Part shown: in pieces, positions 12,158 through 64,000 of the stretch | Layout: every line of letters starts with the position of its first letter | Position numbering within the stretch: position 1 is the stretch's first letter | From: Bacteroidia bacterium | Lineage (GTDB): Bacteria > Bacteroidota > Bacteroidia > 2-12-FULL-35-15 | Length of the DNA stretch: 64,000 bases | Assembly: GCA_030654175.1 (NCBI GenBank) | Contig: JAURXZ010000016.1 | Location: forward strand, 124,001-188,000 | Direction: 5' to 3' | Position numbers and translations under genes: made by a program | Notes under the pieces: model-generated | The model's database searches: none | Told to the model about the DNA's origin: nothing | What the model saw: the letters and a program-made list of their open reading frames with translations, nothing else

Positions 12158-13165
12158 ATGTCCAAATCACTTATCATCACTTCCATTGCTAATGATAAAC
12201 ACCCTATTTTAAATTCGTTTGCGGTAGAATGTAAAAAGCGGAATCTTGAATTTATTGTGATCGGTGATACTAAATCTCCAACTGATTTTCAATTGGAAGG
12301 TTGTGATTTTTGGGGCATTGATCGCCAATCAACATTACCATTTGACCTGGCAAAAATTACACCTACAAAACATTATTCACGAAAAAATTTGGGTTATCTT
12401 TTGGCCATTCAAAATGGTGCAACTGAATTAGTTGAAACAGATGATGATAATATCCCACGCGATGAATTCTGGACTGATAAACAACGTGAAGTAAAAAGCC
12501 ACGCCTTTGAAAATGCGGGCTGGGTGAATGTGTATCATTATTTTACCAAACACAAAATATGGCCACGTGGTTTTCCATTAGAAGAATTACAAAATAAACA
12601 AATTGAACTTAGTTCTTTAAAATACGATTCTGTGAATTGCCCTATTCAGCAAGGCTTAGCAGATGAAAATCCGGATGTGGATGCGGTTTACCGTTTAACC
12701 TATCCACTCCCCATCGACTTTGAAATAAAAGCGAGATTAGCTTTGGGCAAAAACGCCTGGAGCCCTTTCAATAGTCAAAATACACATTGGTTCAAAGAGG
12801 CATTTGCATTAATGTATCTGCCATCTTATTGCAGTTTCAGAATGACCGATATCTGGCGCAGCTATGTTGCGCAGCGTATTTCCTGGGAATGCGGATGGAG
12901 CATTTTATATCACGAACCAACAGTTTGGCAACAACGTAATGAGCATAATCTGATGAAGGATTTTGAGGATGAGATCCCAGGCTATACCAACAATTTTAAT
13001 ATTTGTAAAGAGTTGCAAAGCCTTGAATTAAAGGCCGGACAAACAAATATTTATGAAAATCTAATTGTCTGTTATCAAAAATTAATTGATATTAATGTGA
13101 TTGGTAAAGAAGAAATGACCCTGTTGCAAGCCTGGATAAGCGATATTAAGAAGTTGATATCATAG
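12158..13165 (+). CDS. DUF288/STELLO-like glycosyltransferase-related protein
   Basis: A 335-aa protein resembling the DUF288 family, named for the plant Golgi STELLO proteins and also found in bacteria and nematodes. The clearest signature is NLGYLLAIQNGATELVETDD with the acidic DDDN cluster just after it (about residues 86-108), resembling a GT-A metal/nucleotide-sugar site; SFRMTDIWRSYVAQRI (about 222-237) is a second conserved-looking block. No membrane segment or signal is visible. The activity of bacterial members is, as far as I know, unsettled; here it sits between a GT2 and an FkbM methyltransferase, supporting a role in glycan synthesis. The family assignment is from memory of the motif. 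Confidence 0.7.
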   Translation: MSKSLIITSIANDKHPILNSFAVECKKRNLEFIVIGDTKSPTDFQLEGCDFWGIDRQSTLPFDLAKITPTKHYSRKNLGYLLAIQNGATELVETDDDNIPRDEFWTDKQREVKSHAFENAGWVNVYHYFTKHKIWPRGFPLEELQNKQIELSSLKYDSVNCPIQQGLADENPDVDAVYRLTYPLPIDFEIKARLALGKNAWSPFNSQNTHWFKEAFALMYLPSYCSFRMTDIWRSYVAQRISWECGWSILYHEPTVWQQRNEHNLMKDFEDEIPGYTNNFNICKELQSLELKAGQTNIYENLIVCYQKLIDINVIGKEEMTLLQAWISDIKKLIS

Positions 13166-13253
13166 CCCCGAAAGCATCAACAAAAATCATATATTTGCTA
13201 TTTACTGTATCGGTGTAATCTTTTGAAAGTCTGTGTAATCAAATTATAGTAAA

Positions 13254-14012
13254 ATGTCGCAATCATTCTCCATTCAGGTTGGAAAGTTTCTTTATAAAAA
13301 TGCTTTTCCGCTGTATAACCTGATATATCCCGTATTCAAGAGGAAACAGGATGCCAGGGAAATAAAACTTATCAGTTCTATTGTAAAGCCTGGTTTTAAT
13401 ATATTGGATATTGGTGCCAACATCGGTTTTTACACTCAAATTTTCTCCAGTTTAGTTGGCCCTAATGGCACTGTCCATGCTTTTGAGCCGGAAGCAACCA
13501 ACTTCAACTATTTACAACAAAATTTAGGAACCAATAAAAATGTAAAACTGGTTAACAAAGCTGTTTCTGATAAAACAGGGCCTATAAAAATTTACCTTTC
13601 TAAAATGTTAAATGTGGATCATCGTACTTATCCGGTTGATGATTATGCAGAAGTTATTGAGATCAATGCAACAACAATTGATGATTATCTCTTGTCAAAT
13701 AATACTACGCAGGTAGATTTTATAAAAATGGATATTCAAGGTTTTGAAATGGCTGCTTTAAAAGGCATGGAAAAAACCTTAAAAAATAACCCACACGTAA
13801 AAATAATCACAGAACTATGGCCTTATGGATTAAAAAAAGCCGGTAGTTCTGCCCTTGAAATCGTTGATTTCGCAACTTCCGAAAAATTTAATATTTATTT
13901 GGTAACACCAAACCAATTGGAACTTCTCACCAAAGAAATGGTTTTAAAATTAAAGGAAGATGAAAAAAATTATTACAATGTTGTTTTAAGCAAAGAAAGT
14001 TTCGAATACTAA
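13254..14012 (+). CDS. FkbM-family methyltransferase
   Basis: A 252-aa S-adenosylmethionine-dependent methyltransferase. Motif I is ILDIGANIGFYTQIF (about 54-68), followed by GTVHAFEPEATNFNYL, where the acidic residue of EPE binds the SAM ribose, and DFIKMDIQGFEMAALKGM, the FkbM signature. Family members O-methylate sugars or polyketides. A short N-terminal hydrophobic stretch precedes the domain. In this cassette the likely acceptor is a sugar of the surface glycan. Confidence 0.88.
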   Translation: MSQSFSIQVGKFLYKNAFPLYNLIYPVFKRKQDAREIKLISSIVKPGFNILDIGANIGFYTQIFSSLVGPNGTVHAFEPEATNFNYLQQNLGTNKNVKLVNKAVSDKTGPIKIYLSKMLNVDHRTYPVDDYAEVIEINATTIDDYLLSNNTTQVDFIKMDIQGFEMAALKGMEKTLKNNPHVKIITELWPYGLKKAGSSALEIVDFATSEKFNIYLVTPNQLELLTKEMVLKLKEDEKNYYNVVLSKESFEY

Positions 14013-14070
14013 TTCGCTATTCAGAACATTACACTATTTCTACTATCTACGAAATTAATTTTTAAAGTAA

Positions 14071-14823
14071 TTGGCAATAAAATACGACATAGCAACTCAT
14101 TTGGACGATCCGGAAACCACGCTTAAACACCGTGAGATAATCGTGTCGAAAGCGTTTTTAAAAAAAATATATGAAAAGTGGTATGCTGATTTTATTGATA
14201 TTTCTAAAAACTTACCATCAGGCAAACTTTTAGAAATTGGTTCCGGTGGAGGCTTTTTAAAAGAACTGATGCCCGAACTTATTACTTCGGATATTATGCC
14301 TCTTGAGCATTGCGACATGGTATTTTCAGCTGAAGAAATGCCTTTTTCAAAAGATGAATTGAGTGGTATTTTTATGCTTAATGTTTTTCACCACATCCCT
14401 AAACCTCATTTATTTTTAAAGGAAGCTGAACGAGTACTAAAACCGGGAGGAAAAATTGTTATGATCGAACCTGCCAATAGTTGGTTTGGAAAATGGATCT
14501 ACAAAACCTTTCATCACGAACCTTTTGATATAAAAGGCGATTGGGAAATACAGTCGAGCGGTCCACTTTCAGGATCTAATCAGGCGTTGCCCTATATTTA
14601 TTTTGAACGCGATAAAAAAAGATTCGAAAAAGAATTTCCGAATTTAAAAATAGAATCCATCAAATACCATACACCATTTATGTATCTCTTAAGTGGTGGT
14701 GTATCCCGAAAAGCATTTGTACCGATAGGAACATTTACTTTTTGGAATTTTATGGAACGGATATTAAACCCGGTGTCAAGGCAATTAGGCATGTTTCAAA
14801 CCATTGAAATAGTTAAAATTTAA
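14071..14823 (+). CDS. Class I SAM methyltransferase with TTG start
   Basis: A 250-aa methyltransferase: LLEIGSGGGFLKEL (SAM motif I, about 51-64), an acidic turn at MPLEHCDMVF, motif GIFMLNVFHHIPKPHLFL, and RVLKPGGKIVMIEPANSWFG (type 11 family layout). The start is TTG 14071, immediately after an in-frame TAA; no in-frame ATG exists before the conserved region, and the N-terminal KYDIATHLDDPETTLKHREI looks family-conserved, so a non-ATG start is needed. It is followed after 7 bp by the next gene. The substrate is presumably a glycan sugar or lipid-linked intermediate. Confidence 0.82.
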   Translation: MAIKYDIATHLDDPETTLKHREIIVSKAFLKKIYEKWYADFIDISKNLPSGKLLEIGSGGGFLKELMPELITSDIMPLEHCDMVFSAEEMPFSKDELSGIFMLNVFHHIPKPHLFLKEAERVLKPGGKIVMIEPANSWFGKWIYKTFHHEPFDIKGDWEIQSSGPLSGSNQALPYIYFERDKKRFEKEFPNLKIESIKYHTPFMYLLSGGVSRKAFVPIGTFTFWNFMERILNPVSRQLGMFQTIEIVKI

Positions 14824-14830
14824 ATTAACA

Positions 14831-16258
14831 ATGAGTTATCAAATAGAAGACAGAAAAGCATATTTCGAAAAATTAGCTCAAAGCCGTAAAAAGCCAAGAG
14901 GTTTTAGTGCATACTACTGGAACGAAATCACCAATTATTGCGATTATTTTTCTCATGAAGATATCTCCATACTTGAAGTAGGATGCGGCACTGGTGAGCT
15001 GCTGAATGGCATGCGGGCGAAGCGAAAAGTGGGGGTCGATTTCAGTCCGGCTATGATAACTATTGCCAAAGAAAAATTTCAAAACATTGATTTTCATGTG
15101 ATGGAAGCGGAGAACATTCAGCTGGATGAGAAGTTTGATCTGATCATACTTTCCAATTTAATTGGTTTTGTTGGTGATGTGCAGGAAGTGTTTAAACAAC
15201 TTCATAAAGTATGTCATCCGCAAACAAAAATAATTGTTACTTACTACAATTATTTGTGGGAACCATTTTTGAAATTTGCTGAAAAAATCGGATTAAAAAC
15301 CCCTACCCCATTACAAAACTGGCTATCATTAACGGATATTAATAACCTGCTTTACATTGCAGGCTTTGATGTTTATAGAAATACAAAGCGAATGATATTT
15401 CCATTTAATATTCCTTTGCTCAAAAGTTTCCTGAACAGTTTTTTAGCTAAACTTCCTTTCTTCCGCTTTTTCTCATTAAACATATACACCTTTGCCAAAC
15501 CTCTTTCTACACTGTCGAAAGAAGAGTACGAAGACAAACATTCTGTTTCAGTTGTTATCCCTGCACGTAATGAAAGTGGTAATATTGAAAATGCAATTCT
15601 TCGCATGCCGAAACTCGGCAAGCACACCGAAATAATTTTTATTGAAGGAAATTCTACTGATGATACGTGGACCAAAATACAGGAAATTGCTCAAAAATAT
15701 TCAAGCTCTTACGACATAAAAATTGGTCAGCAAAATGGTAAAGGAAAGGCTGATGCGGTGCGTAAAGGATTTGGAATGGCAACAGGAGACATTTTAATGA
15801 TATTGGATGCTGATTTAACAGTTCCTCCTGAAGATCTGCCAAAGTTTTATGATGCCATTGCCTCGGGTAAAGGGGATTTTATAAATGGTTCCCGATTAGT
15901 TTATCCGATGGAAAAAGATGCGATGCGTTTTTTAAATCTATTGGGGAACAAATTTTTTAGTATTGCGTTTACCTGGTTATTGGAACAGAAATTTAAAGAC
16001 ACACTTTGTGGAACAAAAGTAATTTTCAGGGAAGATTATTATCGTTTAGTAAAAAATCAAAGCTACTTTGGCGATTTTGATCCTTTTGGTGATTATGATC
16101 TGATTTTTGGAGCTCACAAACTGAATCACAAAATAGTAGAAATACCTATACGATATAAAGAGCGTACTTATGGCAGCACCAATATTTCACGCTTCAGACA
16201 TGGAGTAGTTTTATTGCGAATGTGTTTCTTTGCTGCACGGAAGATCAAATTTATTTAA
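14831..16258 (+). CDS. Methyltransferase-glycosyltransferase 2 fusion protein
   Basis: A 475-aa two-domain protein. Residues about 45-200 form a SAM methyltransferase (ILEVGCGTGELLNGM, VGVDFSPAMI, FDLIILSNLIGF). Residues about 238-460 are a GT2 enzyme: SVVIPARNESGNIENAI, FIEGNSTDDTW, LMILDADLTVPPEDLPKF with the DAD metal motif, and GDYDLIFGAHKLNHKIVEIPIRYKERTYGSTNI. The second half resembles polyprenyl-phosphate sugar transferases. One continuous frame with no internal stop supports a genuine fusion, coupling methylation and sugar transfer. It is the last gene of the cassette. Confidence 0.88.
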   Translation: MSYQIEDRKAYFEKLAQSRKKPRGFSAYYWNEITNYCDYFSHEDISILEVGCGTGELLNGMRAKRKVGVDFSPAMITIAKEKFQNIDFHVMEAENIQLDEKFDLIILSNLIGFVGDVQEVFKQLHKVCHPQTKIIVTYYNYLWEPFLKFAEKIGLKTPTPLQNWLSLTDINNLLYIAGFDVYRNTKRMIFPFNIPLLKSFLNSFLAKLPFFRFFSLNIYTFAKPLSTLSKEEYEDKHSVSVVIPARNESGNIENAILRMPKLGKHTEIIFIEGNSTDDTWTKIQEIAQKYSSSYDIKIGQQNGKGKADAVRKGFGMATGDILMILDADLTVPPEDLPKFYDAIASGKGDFINGSRLVYPMEKDAMRFLNLLGNKFFSIAFTWLLEQKFKDTLCGTKVIFREDYYRLVKNQSYFGDFDPFGDYDLIFGAHKLNHKIVEIPIRYKERTYGSTNISRFRHGVVLLRMCFFAARKIKFI

Positions 16259-18857: not shown

Positions 18858-18922
18858 ACATAACGACTAACAACTAATACCTAATCCCAAATGACCAATG
18901 ACCAATGACTAATACCCAATGA
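18858..18922. repeat. AATGACTAA word repeat, right flank of IVP gene
   Basis: Degenerate tandem words (AACGACTAACAACTAATACC, then AATGACCAATGACCAATGAC) fill the thyA-IVP spacer. They are the inverted counterpart of the repeat at 18427-18467. Confidence 0.7.
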
Positions 18923-19717
18923 CTACACAGCAACAGCCGCCTTTATATGTGGATGAGGATCATAACCTTCCAATGTAAAATCTTCAAATTTAAATTCGAA
19001 AATGCTTTTTACTTCAGGATTGATTTTTAATGTTGGTAATTTACGAAGATCCCTGGTCAATTGAAGTTTAGCTTGTTCAAGGTGATTGGAATACAAATGT
19101 GCATCACCCAATGTGTGAATAAATTCACCCGGTTTTAAATTACAAACTTGAGCAATCATTAAAGTTAATATAGCATACGATGCAATGTTAAAGGGGACTC
19201 CTAAAAATATATCGGCACTGCGCTGATATAGTTGGCAACTTAATTTCCCATCGGCCACGTAAAACTGAAAAAAAGCATGACAAGGAGGCAATTTCATTTT
19301 ATCAATTTCGCCAACATTCCAGGCGCTCACGATCATTCTGCGGCTGTCAGGATTATTTTTTATTTGTTCAACAACCTGCGTGATCTGATCAATATGCCGA
19401 CCATCGGCAGTAGGCCAACTGCGCCATTGAGATCCGTATACAGGTCCAAGGTTTCCATTTTCATCTGCCCATTCATCCCAAATGTGAACACCGTTTTCAG
19501 TTAAATATTTGATGTTAGTATCCCCCTTTAAAAACCATAACAATTCATGTAAAATGGATTTTAAATGAAGTTTTTTTGTGGTCAGCATCGGAAAGCCATC
19601 CTGCAGATCGAACCGCATCTGATAACCAAAAACACTAATGGTTCCGGTCCCTGTTCTATCTGTTTTGGTTGCTCCTTTATCCAAAACATGTTGCATTAAA
19701 TCGTGGTATTGTTTCAT
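18923..19717 (-). CDS. thyA: Thymidylate synthase
   Basis: ThyA methylates dUMP to dTMP with methylene-tetrahydrofolate, yielding dihydrofolate. The 264-aa protein has the E. coli-type length and the catalytic Cys146 in [11 protein letters not shown]. Other motifs: [40 protein letters not shown] (folate binding), [22 protein letters not shown] (dUMP phosphate and base contacts) and [12 protein letters not shown]. It is upstream of folA on the same strand, so production and recycling of dihydrofolate are genetically linked. Confidence 0.97.
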
Positions 19718-61901: not shown

Positions 61902-61976
61902 GGGAGCTTAGCTCAGCTGGTTCAGAGCATCGCCCTTACAAGGCGAGGGTCACTGGTTCGAACCCAGTAGCTCCCA
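61902..61976 (+). tRNA. tRNA-Val (anticodon TAC)
   Basis: A complete cloverleaf of 75 nt: acceptor GGGAGCT/AGCTCCC (7 bp), D stem GCTC/GAGC, anticodon stem TCGCC/GGCGA with loop CTTACAA (anticodon TAC, reading GUA and GUG-type Val codons), T arm ACTGG-TTCGAAC-CCAGT, discriminator A at 61976. CCA is not encoded. It is overlapped on the other strand by the end of a serine recombinase gene, making this the attachment target of the mobile element on the right. Confidence 0.96.
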
Positions 61977-63498
61977 CTCTACAGGGCAACAATTCGTAAA
62001 ACGATTGTTGCCCTTTTTTATTCCCTGCAAATTCATTGATTTTACAGCATATCCGGTCAATCAGTTCATTTACTTTTGTGGTTCGAACTTGATTATTTAC
62101 AAACTGGAACTTTTCAGGGAAGATCGAACCAATAATACGCTGTTTGGTTGGAGAATCAGCTTTATCATAAGCAATATCAAGGTTTTGGACAACTTTATTA
62201 CAAGTATCTATTAATTTTTCATGGGACGTTGTATTGGAGCGTAATTTATTCTCTTCATTTGTTAAAATAATTAATTCCTCTTCCAGTTTAACTTTCATTT
62301 TTCTGTATTCTGTTGGATTAAGCTCACCATCTAACATTAAAATTTGGGCATTTTTAAGCCGTGTTTTATTCTTTTCTATCTCCTTGCCTATCTTATCAAT
62401 TTCAATCTTATTTACTCCACTATTTGACTTTAATTTATTTTTAAGAGTTTTCATAAATAGTTCAATTATCACAAGATGGAATTTTAGCATTTTGAGCTTT
62501 TTTGCAAATTCCTGATTTGTATCAAAGGCTTTTATCCTCTCTTTACACCCCTTTCTACAGTGGTAATAATAAAATTTTTCACCCGATCTTCCCGTAGAAG
62601 CTGAACCAGTTAAAGCCATACCACATCTCGGGCATTGTAAATATCCTCTTAACGGCAACTCATCACGCACGGTTTGTACTTTATTAGGACAATTTCTTTT
62701 TCTACCAGATAAAATATCCTGGACTTCATAAAATGTGAATTCATCAATAATTGGCTTGTGAATACCTTCTACCCACTGTGCTGGTTCATCTTTATAAGCA
62801 TGAACAAATATCCTCCCAATATATGTTTTGTTCTTTAATACGGCAGCAAAAGCATTTTTAGTGAGTTTAAGTCCTTCTTTATATAACTTCCTCCTTAACT
62901 CTTCGATATTAAATAATCCTGTTGCAAATTCAGCAAATGCCTTTTTTATAATTGCTTCCTGAAATCCGCCTTCGGGTACAATTATAGGTTTGTCTTTTTC
63001 ATCTCTTGTATTTTTATATCCTTTTGGAAAGTGCCCTAACCAACGTCCCTCTTTTTTAGCTCTTCGCATTCCGTGAAAAACATTTAATGCTCTTCTATCA
63101 TTATCGACTTCTGGGGCTGCTAAGTAAATAGCCAACATTATTTTTTGTTCAGGGATTTCAAAATTGAGCGGTTGCTCTATGGCTTGAGGTTCAACTCCGA
63201 ATTTTTGCAGTGCTTTGATGGTAATATATGCTTCTGCAATATTACGAGAGAACCTGTCCCACTTTATGAATATTAACAAATCTACCGAACTGCTGTTCTT
63301 TTTAAGGTAGTTCATTATATTTAACCATTGTGGACGATTAAACGTTTTACCACTTTCATCATCATGGTAAAACGCAACCACCTCAATATTGTTTTGGTTA
63401 CAGTATTTTAAGAGCCTTTCTTTTTGGTCAGCAGGGCTATACCCGTTATTTTGTTCATCTGTAGATACACGAGTGTATAGTATTGCTCTTTGGTTCAT
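61936..63498 (-). CDS. Large serine recombinase, 3' end antisense to tRNA-Val
   Basis: A 520-aa serine integrase. N-terminal resolvase domain: AILYTRVSTDEQ with nucleophile Ser12, DDESGKTFNRPQW, LLIFIKWDRFSRN (catalytic Arg pair region). Then the recombinase domain (about 165-280), a zinc ribbon with CPRC (about 287) and HCRKGC (about 313), and a coiled coil (about 345-430). The final 13 residues, VGATGFEPVTLAL, are the antisense reading of tRNA-Val, and the TAA stop comes from the tRNA anticodon loop (61936-61938). The tRNA terminator hairpin is also within this frame. Element integration at the tRNA therefore probably supplied the last codons. ATG 63498 is 9 bp after the stop of a small upstream gene. 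Confidence 0.92.
   Translation of the reverse strand: MNQRAILYTRVSTDEQNNGYSPADQKERLLKYCNQNNIEVVAFYHDDESGKTFNRPQWLNIMNYLKKNSSSVDLLIFIKWDRFSRNIAEAYITIKALQKFGVEPQAIEQPLNFEIPEQKIMLAIYLAAPEVDNDRRALNVFHGMRRAKKEGRWLGHFPKGYKNTRDEKDKPIIVPEGGFQEAIIKKAFAEFATGLFNIEELRRKLYKEGLKLTKNAFAAVLKNKTYIGRIFVHAYKDEPAQWVEGIHKPIIDEFTFYEVQDILSGRKRNCPNKVQTVRDELPLRGYLQCPRCGMALTGSASTGRSGEKFYYYHCRKGCKERIKAFDTNQEFAKKLKMLKFHLVIIELFMKTLKNKLKSNSGVNKIEIDKIGKEIEKNKTRLKNAQILMLDGELNPTEYRKMKVKLEEELIILTNEENKLRSNTTSHEKLIDTCNKVVQNLDIAYDKADSPTKQRIIGSIFPEKFQFVNNQVRTTKVNELIDRICCKINEFAGNKKGQQSFYELLPCRVGATGFEPVTLAL
61983..62020 (+). terminator. Terminator of the tRNA-Val transcript
   Basis: AGGGCAACAATTCGT and ACGATTGTTGCCCT pair with a single bulged T around an AAA loop, and TTTTTT follows. 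It lies 7 nt after the tRNA and inside the antisense recombinase frame. Confidence 0.9.
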
Positions 63499-63507
63499 AG
63501 TAATTGG

Positions 63508-63726
63508 TTAACTTGATTCGTCTTCGTTACGATTTGCTCTGTCAATAATTTCGTTCATCTTATCTGTTCCGTTTTTCTCTACGATCGTTAAAACTATATC
63601 AGCCATATTATTTAACCAATCACGAATTTTGATAAGTTCTTCATCAGTATAATTAATTTCACCTTTAGCAACTGTCTTTCGACATTCCGCCAACGACAAT
63701 TTTGTATTTTCTACACTCGAATTCAT
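63508..63726 (-). CDS. Small protein upstream of the recombinase
   Basis: A 72-aa soluble protein, mostly helical (ENTKLSLAECRKTVAKGEIN, TDEELIKIRDWLNNMADIV). Acidic C-terminus RANRNEDESS. Its stop is 9 bp before the recombinase ATG and it has a full promoter upstream, so the two form an operon. I recognise this type as a frequent companion of serine recombinases in Bacteroidota elements; the role (regulator or recombination directionality factor) is not established. Confidence 0.75.
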   Translation of the reverse strand: MNSSVENTKLSLAECRKTVAKGEINYTDEELIKIRDWLNNMADIVLTIVEKNGTDKMNEIIDRANRNEDESS

Positions 63727-63771
63727 AAGTGGATTTCGGGTAGAGAGTCGTTAAACACGTCAGAAAAAAAC

Positions 63772-63838
63772 GAACATTTGTTCTTAAAAAAATCAACAAG
63801 AAACGACACAAATGTAATGATAATCAACGAGTTACAAA
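63772..63838 (-). promoter_or_regulatory. Promoter of the recombinase operon
   Basis: On the minus strand TTTG (63835-63838), 18 nt, then TACATTTG (63809-63816). The leader of about 75 nt contains the small inverted repeat GAACA-AA-TGTTC (63772-63783), a candidate operator. A further 8-bp inverted repeat, TTTGCTTT/AAAGCAAA (63932-63952), lies farther upstream. Confidence 0.65.
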
Positions 63839-64000
63839 ATAAAAAAGCAAAAAAAGTATTAATACATAACTGTTTGGGATTCAGAATTTGCGTTGGTTTA
63901 GAGAGATAATATTTTAATTGATTGCTCATTATTTGCTTTATCGAAAAGCAAAGATGAATCAGGTAGTAAAAACTATTTTTATAAAACTGGAAATATCAAG

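Follow-up and report, generated by a model that had tools for sequence, protein, structure and literature searches.

A Bacteroidota serine recombinase gene that very probably exchanges its 3' end when its element integrates at a tRNA gene

The window, which is the whole stretch of 64,000 nucleotides analysed here (C21:124001-188000 of a 5.1 Mb Bacteroidota genome), very probably holds the left end of an integrated element of about 37 kb whose attP site lies inside the 3' end of its own recombinase gene, and whose integration swaps the tail of the encoded enzyme. The features concerned are the following:

61902-61977, plus strand: tRNA-Val(TAC), the integration target (ARAGORN, Rfam)
61936-63498, minus strand: large serine recombinase in its integrated form, 520 aa, antisense to and overlapping tRNA-Val (open reading frame with domain and profile matches)
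61957-61961, plus strand: T-loop TTCGA, at a distance of 21 nt from where the shared 6 bp end (26 nt for this motif in the element right end)
61972-61977, plus strand: TCCCAC, tRNA positions 69-74, the 6 bp common to both element ends, with the crossover inside (comparison of right ends)
61978-62020, plus strand: element-borne replacement terminator of tRNA-Val, whose antisense strand codes for recombinase residues
63508-63726, minus strand: conserved 72-aa open reading frame directly upstream of the recombinase, kept in the copies
61978-64000, plus strand: left part of the element, which runs on to C21:197113 and, across a 96-bp contig overlap, in contig C44 to a right end near C44:178934-179014 (about 37.4 kb)

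The recombinase frame reads antisense through the terminator, acceptor strand and T arm of tRNA-Val and ends in the anticodon loop, its TAA stop being the complement of 61936-61938. The C-terminal end of the integrated protein is ...LLPCRVGATGFEPVTLAL, and its last 13 residues, V508 to L520, are encoded by 61939-61977. The codon of V508 is the complement of tRNA C72-A73-C74 (61975-61977) and is shared by element and tRNA; residues 1-508 are element-coded and residues 509-520 (GATGFEPVTLAL) are tRNA-coded, as the antisense of the acceptor strand, T arm, variable loop and anticodon stem. The terminator hairpin, whose stem starts at 61983 and whose U-run reaches 62020, lies inside the recombinase frame and has a folding energy of -18.8 kcal/mol (z -7.2). 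A sequence-only reading of the window had described the antisense entry into the tRNA gene, the 13 borrowed residues, the stop in the anticodon loop and the hairpin at 61983-62020 within the frame, and all of this holds, the tail additionally covering the 3' strand of the acceptor.

By its domains, the enzyme is a large serine recombinase, with a Resolvase N-terminal domain carrying the catalytic serine, a Recombinase domain and a zinc ribbon (PF00239, 1e-24; PF07508, 2e-9; PF13408, 1e-4, the last slightly below its cut-off), like the A118/LI, Bxb1 and phiC31 large serine integrases. Its recombinase domains are of the serine type only, and it is not a tyrosine recombinase. The catalytic S12, in YTRVST, is invariant among the recombinases, the phrog_95 integrase profile matches at 7e-66, and the structure of the A118 integrase C-terminal domain matches residues 198-432. 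An AlphaFold model of the integrated form was poor (mean pLDDT 57, lowest in the tail) and was not used for conclusions. The 72-aa open reading frame upstream is a candidate accessory or directionality factor; at another locus (L043, 14700-14860) it is duplicated.

Far from being a chance feature of this locus, read-through of the tRNA is shared by the family. The genome holds a second copy, on contig C31, which sits at tRNA-Met with the same layout; its protein is 86% identical and its DNA 81% identical over 2.1 kb, and outside the tRNA the likeness of the two copies begins right after the tRNA 3' end. Among 45 related loci examined, the T arm is read through in all 39 that have a recognisable one, 38 of them in one frame; this shared frame results from the crossover point being fixed and does not add to the case for a function of the tRNA-coded tail. 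The targets comprise tRNA-Val, Met, Lys, Arg, Leu, Pro, Glu, Asn, Phe, Ser and Ala, and also the 3' end of tmRNA, and the tRNA-coded tails measure from a few to over 60 residues depending on the target. Inspected by eye, 26 further loci in the class gave 23 antisense tRNA or tmRNA ends, two native tails (described below) and one early stop. The use of tRNA genes, which the sequence-only reading had called less usual for serine integrases, is the rule in this family, whose strong matches occur in 40 of the 247 genomes of the class. Overlap of recombinase and tRNA is nevertheless not indispensable, since one branch (G055) has its own stop about 480 bp before the tRNA and another recombinase (L322) stops early. 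In the G055 genome, two 95%-identical recombinase modules lie in tandem, 30 kb apart (G055:C4:103500-134500; L224, L225), with cargo that by eye includes Wadjet-like genes, together with copper-handling genes.

Could the arrangement simply be a fixed part of the chromosome? The same tRNA-Val is occupied in five related genomes of one clade, as would be expected of an immobile locus, but the same module is found at different tRNAs within one genome, relatives have empty sites in which the tRNA is followed by a different, host terminator, and cargo is varied. Moreover, between genomes G000 and G029 the recombinase DNA is 84% identical and the adjacent folC 71%; the recombinase being closer than its neighbour, this indicates horizontal movement. 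Similarity to the element-free tRNA-Arg and tRNA-Leu loci of the nearest relative (G017) ends at the tRNA 3' end. A fixed arrangement is therefore extremely improbable. The C68 seen in tRNA-Val of the occupied genomes, which we considered as an element-borne base, follows the host phylogeny instead.

The cargo of the window element comprises MerC, ThiF/JAB and an endolysin-like glucosaminidase; the element also encodes a 1745-aa helicase/methylase-like protein and several small proteins. Other copies carry a type III restriction-modification system with the candidate systems PDC-S19 and PDC-M30 (L043), or type I restriction-modification, Septu-like genes and AbiEi (L038). The 2.1-2.2 kb block common to the copies was considered as a minimal element and rejected, as it is the recombinase module only and the cargo differs. 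The elements of 36-37 kb (C44:180000-198500, that is L246; L227 on C31; L041) have genes in common, for example a 494-aa ATPase, and are possibly a non-tailed phage or another undescribed mobile element. Between cargo genes of L043, blocks of phased 11-bp A/T repeats (AATTAAGAACTATATAAGAAGCAATTGAAAAAC...) recur (12592-15079 and 18907-19002); similar stretches occur in L038, L039 and L066, and one 147-bp block is duplicated at 98%.

We sought right ends by scanning for a T-arm-like motif followed by CAC and then by a terminator hairpin. The right end of the C31 element was found on the same contig, 36.4 kb from tRNA-Met, and reads ...CTAACAATTGTTTCGATATTTCGTCAGTAGTGCCCAC / CAAAAACCTCGACTTTTGTCGAGGTTTTTTT, the slash marking the junction; when the sequence past this junction is placed directly after the tRNA, a normal empty site results (GGGCCCACCAAAAACC), complete with encoded CCA and terminator. 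In another genome (G027:C8) this right end recurs at a distance of 36.8 kb, again with the native tail and a host terminator. For the window element, the right end is that in contig C44 (...CGTCAGTAGTTCCCAC / CAAAAGCCACCTAAACAGGTGGCTTTTTTT, then tRNA-Val(GAC)), which is tied to the window by 96 identical bases shared by C21 and C44 within one giant repeat-rich gene. Searching with the native tail yielded some 20 additional right ends, spread over 12 of 36 congeneric genomes and mostly followed by a terminator. A distant member at tRNA-Leu in the same genome (C32, about 26% identity) has its right end at 189110, and the DNA beyond it matches what directly follows tRNA-Leu in G017. The right end of a copy at tRNA-Arg (C6) was not found within 70 kb.

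Right ends stop at the 6 bp they have in common with the tRNA 3' end, (T/G)CCCAC, tRNA positions 69-74, and the displaced host terminator comes next. A second long copy of the tRNA 3' sequence, proposed as a check for the downstream side, was not found at element ends (within 20 kb, and up to 95 kb), because only these 6 bp are common. The sequence-only reading had considered a crossover in the 3' part of the tRNA; the crossover is at its very 3' end and no deeper. Were the crossover in the T loop or the anticodon stem, the tRNA would receive its entire 3' half from the element, as with tyrosine integrases, and this might account for the displaced 3' fragments of tRNAs that lie close to some loci (L062, C32:190155). 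We nonetheless find it very unlikely: right ends have only 6 bp in common with the tRNA, the true C32 right end at 189110 precedes the 190155 fragment, and the tRNAs used by related elements are not alike in T stem or acceptor. As candidate right ends, the fragments at L062, C32:190155, L095 and L187 were rejected, the real C32 right end lying elsewhere, and those at L062, L095 and L187 could stem from tyrosine-integrase elements.

Several neighbouring observations concern tRNA-Met. In G027:C8 (102970-123300), right ends stand in a row behind one tRNA-Met (103050, 104260, 105999 and about 123250), pointing to repeated accretion of elements. The broken tRNA-Met genes of G017 and G007 were considered as targets of the same element and rejected, since a different, unrelated element type is involved: at L114 (G017:C594) and L117/L160 (G007:C36), the tRNA is broken after position ~51 and joined to a common sequence (CATAATACTCAATATTCATAAGCCTTTCAT...). 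At L140 (G016:C4) and L152, tRNA-Met is followed by an insert of about 390 bp, its open reading frame GIY-YIG-like by eye, and then by a second tRNA 3' part that has a hairpin-like CCCCTATGGCTATCGGGG in place of the anticodon loop.

Read antisense, the right ends encode the native C-terminus of the recombinase, VGTTDEISKQLLDDIEVLANLEPYLNI-stop. From the same GTG codon, three of them (C31, G027:C8 and C44) continue the frame as V-GTTDEISKQLLDDIEVLANLEPYLNI-stop. The DNA of these three identical native tails differs by 5, 7 and 8 nt, and all differences are synonymous (simulated P <= 2.5e-4, 1e-4 and 5e-5); by this pattern of substitution, the DNA of the native tail is under purifying selection as protein. 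The tail of the distant tRNA-Leu element is different (V-PYGLKLSNFIDDFGRIRKLKAFMEIKQFA), and native tails end in YLNI, SSH, SID, QNE or ITG. The native tail is an amphipathic stretch beyond the part matching the A118 structure.

Uninterrupted genes occur naturally. In the closed chromosome of G142 the gene is complete (532 aa) and has both the catalytic domain and a native tail; G014 has an uninterrupted gene with native tail that is truncated N-terminally, and tandem junctions of a right end with a left end in G065 and G027:C4 also restore an uninterrupted gene. The G142 and G014 junctions sit in chromosomes, and no circle of the element was found in viral contigs, phages or plasmids. From these natural junctions it follows that a circle would carry the whole gene, and that integration would exchange its last 26 codons. 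The sequence-only reading had proposed that the frame is complete only after integration into a tRNA gene. In the integrated state the stop and last codons do come from the tRNA, but right ends hold a conserved, in-frame native tail with its own stop, and G142 holds the whole gene; the reverse of that proposal is what we see, and completion by integration can hardly be correct. Its broader claim, of a mobile element at a tRNA gene whose integration changes the recombinase C-terminus, is borne out.

The attachment sites can be delimited by the same comparison. Of 25 right ends, 24 have the hexamer GTTCGA at one fixed place, its TTCGA lying exactly 26 nt from the junction, and the remaining one has TTTGA there; the T-loop TTCGA of tRNAs starts 21 nt from the same junction point, a shift of 5 bp. 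In A118-type integrases, the zinc-domain motif of attB lies 5 bp closer to the centre than that of attP (PMC3783163), a rule with which the present shift agrees, GTTCGA being the putative bound motif. The T loop thus probably serves as the zinc-domain motif of attB, an arrangement that would open any tRNA or tmRNA to the element as a target. No shared motif was seen in the left half-site of attP or on the host side of attB. The crossover is confined to the 6 bp (T/G)CCCAC, within which sequence comparison does not single out the crossover dinucleotide.

The tail exchange that we favour would then proceed as follows. In the circular element, the recombinase gene would run through the crossover, V508 being followed by GTTDEISKQLLDDIEVLANLEPYLNI-stop, for a protein of about 534 aa; the predicted circle junction is ...GTTTCGATATTTCGTCAGTAGTTCCCAC / TCTACAGGGC..., with the recombinase open to its native stop. 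The enzyme would recombine attP with a tRNA (or tmRNA) 3' end within (T/G)CCCAC, recognising the T-loop GTTCGA. The outcome is seen in the integrated sequences: the tRNA is intact and has gained the terminator of the element, the host's own terminator has moved to the right end of the element, and the native tail is stranded there. The integrated gene has a tail and stop read antisense from the tRNA, its last 26 residues being replaced.

What might such a swap do? We infer that it changes the activity of the enzyme, most likely favouring persistence by altering excision; the native tail may be needed for integration in the circular state, and its loss may alter excision. More tentatively, the swap could act as a switch akin to a directionality factor, the circular form with its native C-terminal helix being integration-competent and integration rewriting the enzyme to an altered activity, such that the element stays locked in place until either a related circle arrives or an accessory protein intervenes. 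It is also possible, though we would not bet on it, that the swap is real but functionless, the gene end merely overlapping attP and both enzyme forms working equally. Two points would fit with this: tRNA-coded tails have no conserved sequence and differ with the target, some being a few residues long and others over 60, and G055 and L322 do without the overlap. The purifying selection that acts on the native tail, the conservation of this tail at right ends of 12 genomes, and the lack of any stop before the T arm in the 39 integrated relatives with a recognisable T arm argue against it.

Two known systems come close. In archaeal suicidal integrases (SSV1, pTN3 and pT26-2 type), as here, attP lies in the integrase gene, which integration alters (PMC8371274), and these integrases are described as exclusive to archaea (PMC8371274). 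They are, however, tyrosine recombinases whose gene is cut into two large pieces, whereas the bacterial serine recombinase described here retains every catalytic domain and exchanges no more than its last 26 residues. In the integration-dependent immunity of the mycobacteriophages BPs and Brujita, attP is likewise in a coding gene and attB in a tRNA, and a new stop from the host side changes the C-terminus upon integration (PMC9262239). There, however, it is the repressor gene that is altered, integration is by a tyrosine integrase and the tail that is lost is a degradation tag of the ssrA kind (PMC9262239), whereas here attP is in the recombinase gene and native tails have no LAA-type tag. 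With a serine enzyme and attP in the recombinase gene, the present element belongs to neither group. The literature we searched, most subscription journals being outside its reach, gave no description of a serine integrase swapping its own tail.

The tail swap would explain the GFEP-type tRNA-antisense tails on many Bacteroidota recombinases. A widespread family of bacterial serine integrases alters its own gene at tRNA genes, sparing the catalytic part, and offers a natural experiment on one-way integration by serine integrases, which is also of practical interest for genome engineering. With attB at the 3' end of a tRNA or tmRNA and attP visible from the right end, sequence is sufficient to predict attB/attP pairs for many of the elements, and phage-defence systems are carried by several of these.
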